From contig CALMNW010000022.1 in the NCBI GenBank assembly GCA_937872095.1, forward strand, positions 52,424 to 116,423: a stretch of DNA of 64,000 nucleotides, in the 5' to 3' direction. Within the stretch, counting starts at the first letter, position 1. Every line of letters starts with the position of its first letter. The position numbers and the translations under genes are program-made. The DNA comes from an uncultured Verrucomicrobiota bacterium. GTDB lineage: Bacteria > Verrucomicrobiota > Kiritimatiellia > CAIQIC01 > Lenti-01. Shown piece after piece: positions 18,792 through 48,600 of the stretch. The notes beneath the pieces are model-generated. The model searched no databases. It was not told the DNA's origin and was given only the letters and a program-made list of their open reading frames with translations.

Positions 18792-18896
18792 TTTTTTCCA
18801 TGCTGTGGAAAAAAGTTTTCCACGGTATGGAAAAATCGGCCGCCGTTTTTCCACGGCGTGGAAAATTCACTCGCAATTTTTCCACGACGTGGAAAA
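18792..18896. repeat. Palindrome array A (4 units TTTTCCAnnnnnTGGAAAA)
   Basis: TTTTTTCCATGCTGTGGAAAAAA, TTTTCCACGGTATGGAAAAA, TTTTTCCACGGCGTGGAAAA, TTTTTCCACGACGTGGAAAA. Confidence 0.93.
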
Positions 18897-18941
18897 CTCC
18901 GCGGATTCCATGAATTCCCGTTTTGCCATCCGGAGCCCCCG

Positions 18942-25979: not shown

Positions 25980-27449
25980 TCATGGTTGCACGAACACGTG
26001 CGAATATACAGCCAAATCCATGCGGGTGACATAAACGATAGTCGTCCGGCCCGCCTGCAAAGTTACGTCGCCCGACCAGCGCGTGCCGCCGCCGGGGGCG
26101 GTCAGTTCGACGCGCCGGTTGCCGGGATCGACCCATGCGCCAAGCACTTGGACGTGCGCCGGCAGCGTCAGCCAGCTCCGCAAATCGGCCTGTTCGGAAA
26201 GCACGTTGTAGAGCGTCACCGCCAGCCCGGCCCATTCGCCGCCGTTGCCCCCCTGGTCGTGCGCGGCCTTGGCCGCCACCGCCTTGGCCACGGCCCGCGC
26301 CACCTGCCGCGCCAAAATGCCCGGCATCTGCTCTGCCAGCGCCCGCGCCGCCAAGGCCCCCACGTTGCAGATCGGCGCCGTGCTCGCCAGCGCCTGCCCG
26401 TCCAGCGCCACGCGCACCGGCGCCGTCGGCGACGGCACCTCCGCGTAGGTCGGCAGGGCGATCGACCCGATCGAATCCGCCGACGGCAACGGATAGGCGA
26501 GGGAAATCTCCGATTTCTTCGGCACGAACCCGTCTTCGCACACCACCACCAGCCGGGCCTTCCCCGCCAGCGGATCGCTTCCGGCCGCCGGCATTTTCAA
26601 CGCGCGCGGGAAACGCCGCTCGAAATCCTCCAGATCTTCCCGCATGCCCAGCCGCTTGGCCAGCCGCACCGCATCCATTTGCAGATAGATGTTCTCCGGC
26701 GCGATCTCCAGCGCCTTCTTGACGTCGATGTAGGCGTCGTTCGCCTCCCCCAGCATTTCCCAGATCACCGACGACACGTAGAGCGTCGCCGCGTTCTGGA
26801 ACGACGACTTCACCTCGCCCGCCAGCTGGTCGAGCCCGGCATAGACTGCGCCCAGATGCGGGTCCCGCTCGTCGTCCGGCGCAGCCTCGCCTTCCTTTTT
26901 CTTCGCTTTCGCGATTTCGCGTTCGTGCCGCCGGAGCGCCTGGTCCTGCTCGCGGCTCGCCCGGCGGACTTCGACGCCGGCGCCGGTCAGGTCGCCCTGG
27001 GCCAGATAATTCAGCGCCTGGTAGTGGTGCACTAGCGTCCGCTCGTAGCTCGGGGCGCGGTACGGGATCGTCTTGTCGTTCACCAGCATCGCGCTGCCCT
27101 GCGCCGCCGCGCCCCGCGCCGATATCGCGGCCCGGTTGTCCTGGTCCTCCGTCGCGGCGATCGCCGTCGCGAACGCTGCGCGCGACGCCGCGAAATCGCC
27201 CTCCAGCTGGGCCGTGCGTCCCAATTCCATCGCGAACAGTACGCGCGACGTGCCGTTCAGGCGTTTGCCGAACGTCTTCTGGTAGTCCGGCTTCTGTCCC
27301 GTCCGCAGCGGCTCCAGCGTCGTCTGTTCCATCCCCGCCGGATACTGGCTGAACGTGCCGCAGCCCGCCGCAAGCAGCGCCAGCCAACATCCCAGAACCG
27401 GCCCGCGCCATTTTTGCAGGTTGACGGGAATGGAACGGCCTTTCACCAT
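25980..27449 (-). CDS. COG3014-like lipoprotein with TPR region
   Basis: LLAAGCGTFSQYPAGM lipobox; ERTLVHHYQALNYLAQGDLTGAGVEVRRASREQDQALRRHE. Confidence 0.82.
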   Translation of the reverse strand: MVKGRSIPVNLQKWRGPVLGCWLALLAAGCGTFSQYPAGMEQTTLEPLRTGQKPDYQKTFGKRLNGTSRVLFAMELGRTAQLEGDFAASRAAFATAIAATEDQDNRAAISARGAAAQGSAMLVNDKTIPYRAPSYERTLVHHYQALNYLAQGDLTGAGVEVRRASREQDQALRRHEREIAKAKKKEGEAAPDDERDPHLGAVYAGLDQLAGEVKSSFQNAATLYVSSVIWEMLGEANDAYIDVKKALEIAPENIYLQMDAVRLAKRLGMREDLEDFERRFPRALKMPAAGSDPLAGKARLVVVCEDGFVPKKSEISLAYPLPSADSIGSIALPTYAEVPSPTAPVRVALDGQALASTAPICNVGALAARALAEQMPGILARQVARAVAKAVAAKAAHDQGGNGGEWAGLAVTLYNVLSEQADLRSWLTLPAHVQVLGAWVDPGNRRVELTAPGGGTRWSGDVTLQAGRTTIVYVTRMDLAVYSHVFVQP

Positions 27450-27473
27450 AGACCGGAAATCATAGCACCCCCC

Positions 27474-28304
27474 ATGCCTCCGGACAGCCAAAATCTCGTT
27501 TGGATCGACGCCCACAGCCACCTGCAGGATCCGCGCCTCGCGCCGCATCTGCCGGGCGTTCTCGCCCGCGCCCGCGCCGCCGGCGTCCGCCGGCTCCATG
27601 TCGACGGCACCTGCGAGGCCGACTGGCCCGCCGTTTGCGCCTTGGCCGACGCCCATCCGGACCTGATTCTCTGCTCGTTCGGCGTTCATCCCTGGTTCAT
27701 CCGGGACCGCAGCGCCCGTTGGCTGCTGAATCTGCGCGACATCCTCGCCTCCCGCCCGGCCGGCATCGGCGAAATCGGCCTCGACGCCCGCCTGGACGAC
27801 GGTCTCGACGCCGATCGCGAAGCCGTTTTCCGCGCCCAGCTCGAGCTCTCGTACGAACTCGCCCTGCCCGCCAGCCTGCATTGCCGCGACGCCTGGGGCC
27901 CGATGCTCGAAATTCTCCTGGCCCTGCCGCCGCATCCCGTCGGGTTGCTCATCCACGCCTACTCCGGCCCCGCCAACGCCCTCGCGGCCCTCGCGGAAAA
28001 AAACGTGCACGTGTCTTTCGGCGGCACCTTGACGCGCCCCAAGAATGCCCGCGCCCGCGAAAACGCCGCGCGCGCGACCGCCGGCCGGTTCCTGCTCGAA
28101 TCCGACGCCCCCGACCTGCCGCCGACCCTGCCCGAGGACGCGGAAAAGCACTTGATCGGTGACGACGGCAAGCTGCTCTCCGAACCCGCCTACGTCCCCG
28201 CCGTCGGCCAAATCCTCGCGGATCTGCGCGGCACGACGCCCGGCGACATCGCCGCGCAAACCACCGCCGCCGCGAATCGCCTCTTCGCGAAGCTCTTGGC
28301 CTGA
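27474..28304 (+). CDS. TatD-family metal-dependent hydrolase
   Basis: IDAHSHLQDPR; CSFGVHPWF; GEIGLDAR; LHCRDAW; LLESDAPDLPP. Confidence 0.9.
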   Translation: MPPDSQNLVWIDAHSHLQDPRLAPHLPGVLARARAAGVRRLHVDGTCEADWPAVCALADAHPDLILCSFGVHPWFIRDRSARWLLNLRDILASRPAGIGEIGLDARLDDGLDADREAVFRAQLELSYELALPASLHCRDAWGPMLEILLALPPHPVGLLIHAYSGPANALAALAEKNVHVSFGGTLTRPKNARARENAARATAGRFLLESDAPDLPPTLPEDAEKHLIGDDGKLLSEPAYVPAVGQILADLRGTTPGDIAAQTTAAANRLFAKLLA

Positions 28305-28378
28305 TCGCTCCATGCCCCTCCAGTCGCCGCCCGCGTCCGATCCGTTACCGCTCTCCCGCAAAATCCATTGCGCCCCGG

Positions 28379-28513
28379 TTTTTACGTAGCGTGGAAACAT
28401 TTTTTCCACGGTGTGGAAAAATCGGGCAACATTTTTACGTAGCGTGGAAAAATCCCGCAAAGTTTTTACGTGCTACGTAAAACTCGCCGAAAGTTTTTAC
28501 GTTCCACGTAAAA
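28379..28513. repeat. Palindrome array B (5 units incl. arm-switched TTTTACGT/ACGTAAAA forms)
   Basis: TTTTTACGTAGCGTGGAAA, TTTTTTCCACGGTGTGGAAAAA, TTTTTACGTAGCGTGGAAAAA, TTTTTACGTGCTACGTAAAA, TTTTTACGTTCCACGTAAAA. Confidence 0.93.
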
Positions 28514-29143
28514 CTACCGCAGCGTGGACCAGGTCGCGCCGTCGCGCGCCTTGTAGCGGGCGATCACGCCGTTGTCGCCCGTTTTCCGGTACCAGGTGAA
28601 GCCCGCCGTCGGCGCCTTGTTGCTCAGCGCCTTCGCCTTCTGCGGGCGAGGGCCCAGGCTCCAGACCGCCCAGGCCAGCGGGCTGTTCGGCGAGTCGTCC
28701 GCCTTGCCGCTCGCTTCTTGGCACGAAGGAAAATCGGCGGGCACCCAGACGGGATAGCGGTCGGGCTGCATCGACCCGTTCATCCAATACCGCTCCGGCG
28801 CGGCGTATTTGTACGTGCTGCCGGGATGGAACGGGTCCTCGAGCAAGGTCGAGGTTTTCGTCTGCGGGTTGTGCGGCAGGTAGTTGCCGTCGGCCAGTTC
28901 CTGCGGCAATTGCAGCACTTCCTGCTGGTCGATGGCCATGCACGACACCACCACGGGCGGGTAGCTGCCGTGGTCGGCGCGGTACGCTTCCAGCGCCACC
29001 TCGACCGTCTGCAAGTCGGACACGACGCGCGCGACGCGCGCGCGCTCGACCGCGCCCAGCAGCGGCACCGCCGCCAGGGCGGCCAACAGGGCCAGCACCG
29101 CCACCGCAACCACCAGCTCGATCAATGAAAAGGCGTTCTTCAA
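28514..29143 (-). CDS. Type II secretion-like pseudopilin (TTG start)
   Basis: LKNAFSLIELVVAVAVLALLAALAAVPLL prepilin N-terminus; start overlaps upstream stop. Confidence 0.85.
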   Translation of the reverse strand: MKNAFSLIELVVAVAVLALLAALAAVPLLGAVERARVARVVSDLQTVEVALEAYRADHGSYPPVVVSCMAIDQQEVLQLPQELADGNYLPHNPQTKTSTLLEDPFHPGSTYKYAAPERYWMNGSMQPDRYPVWVPADFPSCQEASGKADDSPNSPLAWAVWSLGPRPQKAKALSNKAPTAGFTWYRKTGDNGVIARYKARDGATWSTLR

Positions 29144-48465: not shown

Positions 48466-48600
48466 TCCCCCGATCCACCAATCGCGGCCCGTCTCCCTCC
48501 GTCCGGTTTTCCACGCTATGGAAAACTTTTTTCCACGGTGTGGAAAAATTTCAATCCCCTCCCCCCTGAACTCCGACCTCTGAACTCTGACCTCTATAAA
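48425..48600. repeat. trpB-trpA junction composite: CAGAGGT tract, palindrome array C, inverted CAGAGGT tract
   Basis: AAGAAGT CGGAGGT CAGAGGT CGGAGGT (48425-48452); TTTTCCACGCTATGGAAAA (48507-48525) and TTTTTTCCACGGTGTGGAAAAA (48527-48548); CTGAACT CCGACCT CTGAACT CTGACCT (48566-48593). Confidence 0.9.

Follow-up and report, generated by a model that had tools for sequence, protein, structure and literature searches.

In canonical BIMEs, REP/PU units are arranged in alternating orientation. REP elements are palindromes of 20–40 bp that occur in high copy number in intergenic regions and carry a tag, GTAG or CGTC, that is left unpaired at one of the ends (PMC3733652), and gene conversion was proposed for their evolution (Higgins 1988 review, as cited in PMC3116915). 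How such repeats are rewritten is a question that has been open since the description of REPs. Here we describe palindrome arrays from the genome of an uncultured Verrucomicrobiota bacterium. In the literature we found no description of the motif, of Kiritimatiellae repeats like these, or of such palindrome arrays.

The window, a stretch of 64,000 nt, is part of the genome G000; G001 and G006 are genomes of related species, G006 that of a sister species. The units of the arrays are named by their arm words (c for CCAC, a for ACGT, t for CCAT), with the letter of the left arm first and that of the right arm second. The window contains the following features:

18793..18897, + strand: array A, same repeat family, four units, steps 22-31-31, all c-type (CCAC/CCAT)
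27414..28304, + strand: TatD-family hydrolase, convergent neighbour (TIGR00010, E=3.7e-36, below the curated cut-off of the model)
28379..28513, + strand: array B, polarity +, 22-bp head step at the 5′ end, spacers ending in ..AAAG before the next T run
28379..28397, + strand: U1, hybrid (ac), head, first unit, TTTTT-ACGT-AGC-GTGG-AAA
28401..28421, + strand: U2, original (cc), head, second unit, TTTTT-CCAC-GGT-GTGG-AAAAA
28432..28452, + strand: U3, hybrid (ac), tail, TTTTT-ACGT-AGC-GTGG-AAAAA
28463..28482, + strand: U4, switched (aa), tail, TTTTT-ACGT-GCT-ACGT-AAAA
28494..28513, + strand: U5, switched (aa), tail, adjoining the pseudopilin stop, TTTTT-ACGT-TCC-ACGT-AAAA
28514..29149, − strand: type II secretion/type IV pseudopilin-like gene, convergent neighbour (GspG 7e-11, IV_pilin_GFxxxE 1.6e-5)
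48506..48548, strand not assigned: two-unit family member, step 22, c-type

Direct reading of the sequence and a repeat search both showed that the predicted five-unit array at 28379-28513 is real, and that its units follow a frame of 21 nt (TTTTT-4-3-4-AAAAA). The composition of one original, two hybrid and two switched units was confirmed letter by letter. Centred on the 3-nt loop, the units lie at 28389, 28411, 28442, 28473 and 28504, which gives exact steps of 22-31-31-31. The steps of 23, 30, 32 and 31 bp in the original prediction contained a one-base centring error, but its rule of a 22-bp step followed by 31-bp steps holds, and is common to both arrays (22-31-31 in array A). The array begins 75 bp past the stop of the TatD-family gene, which ends at 28304 on the + strand; U5 ends at 28513 and adjoins the stop codon of the pseudopilin-like gene (TAG on the − strand at 28514-28516), so that the last unit and the convergent gene setting are both as had been described.

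Array B is one of dozens of copies of an intergenic repeat that is common to part of the bacterial class. A degenerate unit pattern, TTTTMCRYNNNRYGKAAAA, had 322 matches in the 3.33 Mb genome and none in the reversed control, and the sequence of array B had 63 matches in the genome, of which the best apart from array B itself was 94% identical. Nearly all arrays of G000 obey the 22/31 rule (96 steps of 31 bp, 47 of 22 bp), with the 22-bp step at one end followed by 31-bp steps. The same geometry is repeated in seven further genomes of the family, an extended plan (cc-22-tc-31-tc-30-cc-22-cc) occurs in relatives, and steps of 31–32 bp were found in three other families of the order. CCA-type units were present in 63 of 147 genomes of the class, with up to 720 copies; of 295 genomes sampled from the phylum, 23 had two-unit CCA arrays, and every one of these belongs to the class of the window. 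Among viral contigs one carried such an array. A search for the exact hybrid pattern in a collection with one genome per species yielded only six single matches in unrelated taxa, which were treated as chance.

Many contigs of G000 start or stop close to an array, as expected if the repeats broke the assembly. The contigs C14 and C75 open with identical sequence (CCCAAATGCCTCACCTCCTCATCACAC and its complement, oriented by polarity) beside array units, as if a multicopy element had inserted in arrays and broken the assembly.

Several other repeats were met alongside the arrays. A module of roughly 118 bp with high GC content (GCCGAGTGCCGAGCCCAAGCCG...GAGCGGCAAAAAC) lies within or beside array units at at least seven sites, among them L033 ~790-930, L018 ~625-760, G000:C101 ~1455-1580 and G006:C285:369-485; it is 86–94% identical between species and had no Rfam match in the loci tested. 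The motif GGGAATCGCGGCT is located 5′ of many G000 arrays, including one at about 18745 of the window, and AATCGCGGCT had 46 copies in sampled G000 contigs and 0–2 in samples of two relatives. At G000:C14:19547-19690 a different, AT-rich inverted repeat (CAATATTCAATATCCAATG...CATTGGATATTGAACATTG) is found where the orthologous site G001:C29:71138-71241 holds a palindrome array.

Independently of the arms, each array has a direction given by its spacers, whose approximate sequence ahead of the next T run is TC-NNNN-AAAG; the hybrids indicate the same polarity. Along it, the 22-bp head of the G000 arrays, a pair of near-symmetric units, mostly consists of cc units, and the tail of hybrids or aa units. 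In 32 arrays the first head unit was cc 19 times, ac 12 times and tc once; the second unit was cc in 28, and the third was ac in 20, aa in 10 and cc in 2. Counted by arm type, G000 has 29 aa, 71 ac, 2 ca and 60 cc units (Fisher p=2e-5), the switch of the right arm being almost confined to units in which the left arm is switched as well.

The ACGT/GTGG hybrid pairs as TTTTTACG/CGTGGAAA with two G-U pairs, in line with the predicted pairing through wobble. With RNA parameters it folds with −4.1 kcal/mol on the polarity strand and 0.0 on the opposite strand, versus −1.9 on both strands with DNA parameters; in the CCAT/GTGG hybrid the wobble that closes the loop adds about 1 kcal/mol with RNA parameters and makes no difference with DNA parameters. 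Hybrids oriented by their spacers showed G-T (G-U) rather than A-C in 147 versus 8 cases in G000 and in 17 versus 2 in G001, and tail units were CCAT/GTGG hybrids in 110 of 112 spacer-oriented units from seven other family genomes; owing to shared ancestry these counts do not represent independent events, and seven CCAA/TTGG units in the tail-unit comparison belong to other families of the order. A bridging hybrid, CCAT-AGC-GTGG, which is present in G000 and in relatives, has TAGCGTGG in common with ACGT-AGC-GTGG. Hybrids had been taken for intermediate states of an arm switch, but they are an old and stable type of tail unit, represented in this species by the ACGT-GTGG hybrid.

Covariation of the stem was analysed over 44 distinct units taken from G000 and from other genomes, those outside G000, G001 and G006 being oriented by their wobble, with a slight bias toward pairing: 97.2% of the cells were paired, 22 cells were doubly changed versus 6.3 in shuffles, and the score was 0.273 versus 0.109 in shuffles and at most 0.055 with the partner slid. 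Changes on both sides occurred at 3 of 8 pairs. This bears out the view of a co-varying stem in which pairing is kept.

As many as 32 of 35 arrays lie outside called genes, though only 9% of the sequence is intergenic. In gaps between tandem genes the arrays follow the upstream stop at a median of 30 nt, and gaps with arrays were convergent in 17 and divergent in 5 cases, versus 44 and 88 in the background (Fisher p=2e-4). This placement fits that of repeats tolerated at gene ends. Relative to tandem neighbours the polarity strand was sense in 21 and antisense in 16 cases (p=0.51), showing no preference for the transcribed strand. On the large contigs sampled (few arrays, draft contigs) polarity also showed no relation to GC skew, which lends no support to transposition of single-stranded DNA on the lagging strand with an insertion bias to its template, as in elements like IS200/IS605.

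At the site between the TatD-family gene and the pseudopilin-like gene, G006 also has an array, in which all units are ACGT/ACGT; U5 and its downstream bases are identical at both sites. Arrays were present in both species at the 12 junctions compared between G000 and G006, an occupancy that is biased by the choice of G006 contigs holding arrays. Among the sites anchored on both flanks, polarity could be assigned at six and was the same in each case, and the arm words usually differed between the species, one site being c-type in both. Three one-sided orthologous comparisons showed opposite polarity, so some sites may have been re-invaded rather than converted. About half of the comparable sites are common to G001 and G000, two species of one genus.

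For 16 of the 18 orthologous pairs of arrays, the majority of paralogues, in each of the two genomes, were more similar than the orthologue, and the spacers, too, are homogenised species by species. The arms are CCAC/CCAT in most relatives, mixed in G000 and ACGT in G006. According to whole-genome counts, which are free of the bias mentioned above, aa units (TTTTACGTNNNACGTAAAA) number 154 in G006 and 33 in G000 and are absent from 15 other family members, and CCA units number 16 in G006, 179 in G000 and 234 in G001. These comparisons show that the arrays evolve in concert at sites that were inherited, although some turnover occurs, and the switch of arm words is specific to the G000/G006 lineage.

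If the arrays acted as RNA elements, the hairpins would serve in 3′ UTRs as terminators, mRNA stabilisers or processing sites, and the G-U pairs would show selection on RNA. The position of arrays shortly after stop codons, the arm covariation, the presence of G-U instead of A-C on the polarity strand and the folding of the hybrid on this strand only, with RNA parameters, are all in agreement with this. The original prediction that the wobble favours an RNA structure was right in that G-U lies on the polarity strand, but transcription of such an RNA from the neighbouring genes is not supported. For whole arrays the fold energies are nearly equal on both strands (array B has a folding z-score of about −5 on either), since whole units also pair with one another. 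Such equality, together with a polarity unrelated to transcription, leaves a role in mRNA unsupported. The stems moreover end in A5 instead of U5, terminator-like matches are at chance level, and Rfam has no family for them (0 matches at E<=0.5 with 4227 models at five array loci). An RNA role for the arrays is unproven, and we consider it unlikely. A somewhat better but still doubtful candidate is a dimeric DNA-binding or nucleoid protein that would bind each palindrome on one face of the helix, at 22 and 31 bp, and that would have caused the genome-wide change of arms when its specificity was altered in the G000/G006 lineage. The step lengths, close to two and three helical turns, are kept across families, the words were changed genome-wide and in a lineage-specific manner at old sites, and palindromic symmetry comes with covariation. 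A palindrome whose symmetry is maintained for a dimer would also covary, and the hybrids alone argue against a simple symmetric site: most family members have asymmetric hybrids as tail units, which break such a site but keep single-strand pairing. Spacers homogenised by species argue for copying of whole arrays and not for selection on the arms alone, and a candidate protein was not identified. That the hybrids are neutral debris, simple recombinants of two unrelated palindrome families, would fit the presence in G000 of two discrete words, CCAC and ACGT, and of few single-step intermediates between them. This is very improbable, as the hybrids hold fixed positions and one orientation, the bridging form shares its sequence with the ACGT hybrid, and CCAT/GTGG hybrids exist where ACGT is absent.

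We favour, with a probability of roughly 0.6, the view that array B is a dispersed intergenic array of phased palindromes with a BIME-like layout and no REP tags, which is homogenised within each genome and rewritten in place. Such arrays may have spread as non-autonomous copies and settled where they are least harmful, at the 3′ ends of genes, and recombination or gene conversion between arrays could then rewrite them in place with their orientation kept. During copying or binding the hairpin or palindrome would be recognised, most probably in the form of single-stranded DNA or RNA of the polarity strand, and this recognition would keep pairing and phase; we infer it as the simplest reading of the conservation of both. 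Binding of a nucleoid or topology protein is compatible with these steps and could be the selected function, 22 and 31 bp corresponding to two and three helical turns. A copying enzyme was not found: the loci of Y1 transposases showed no enrichment for arrays. No clean pair of an empty and a filled site with target duplication was obtained, and mobility is therefore inferred. A more speculative extension, which we regard as tentative and rather doubtful, is that a trans-acting factor reads the phased palindromes chromosome-wide, and that in the G000/G006 lineage the factor changed along with the arrays as these went from CCAC to ACGT words; G000 would then be half-switched, and the wobble hybrid would mark the direction of the array. 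G001, G000 and G006 form a natural series in which a palindrome repeat of high copy number was re-lettered genome-wide at inherited sites with geometry and pairing kept, and this makes rewriting by gene conversion, renewed mobilisation and co-evolution with a binding protein testable.

Two Y1_Tnp (RAYT-like) genes were found in G000 at L009:1300-2060 and L050:3760-4700 (G000:C22:8347-8634 and G000:C96:15998-16195). Both are flanked by GC-rich REP-like palindromes, one set of which is GTAG-tagged (GTAGGCCGCCCCTGCGCGGGCGGC), and these constitute a separate repeat system.

With REPINs and their RAYTs the arrays share the character of non-autonomous, dispersed intergenic palindromes that are presumably mobilised in trans, but differ in that the two Y1_Tnp genes of G000 are accompanied by those other palindromes; neither of the two loci carries array units. 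Mobilisation by RAYTs was rejected as unsupported after a survey of 28 Y1 loci of the family, 2 of which had array units (0.95 units per 10 kb versus a background of 0.9–1.5). Like intrinsic terminators, the arrays are hairpins near the 3′ ends of genes and are enriched at convergent genes, but the stem is followed by A5 and not by a U tract. Terminators were rejected as well, a scan of 28200-28700 giving one terminator-like match versus 0.9 expected. None of the families found here accounts for the rigid 22/31 phasing or for the conserved hybrids that all point one way.

The closest resemblance is to REP elements and enterobacterial BIMEs. Palindromic units of 21 nt, 322 copies of one pattern and the intergenic position of 32 of 35 arrays are REP-like, but the arrays have no GTAG or CGTC tag, their units have a T run at the start and an A run at the end, and the spacers are TCNNNNAAAG-like. 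As in BIMEs, palindrome arrays are dispersed between genes with defined short and long linkers and species-specific sequence, and they form mosaics, here of 22- and 31-bp steps and of head and tail units. They differ from BIMEs in the T5/A5 ends of the stems and in a layout where a head pair precedes tail units that share one orientation and are spaced at 31 bp; within each array almost all hybrid tail units point the same way instead of alternating, and the units are not REP sequences. Since tags, linkage to a Y1 transposase and alternating orientation are all missing, we do not file the arrays as REP or BIME. They are best called BIME-like but untagged intergenic palindrome arrays, with an organisation like that of REP/BIME.
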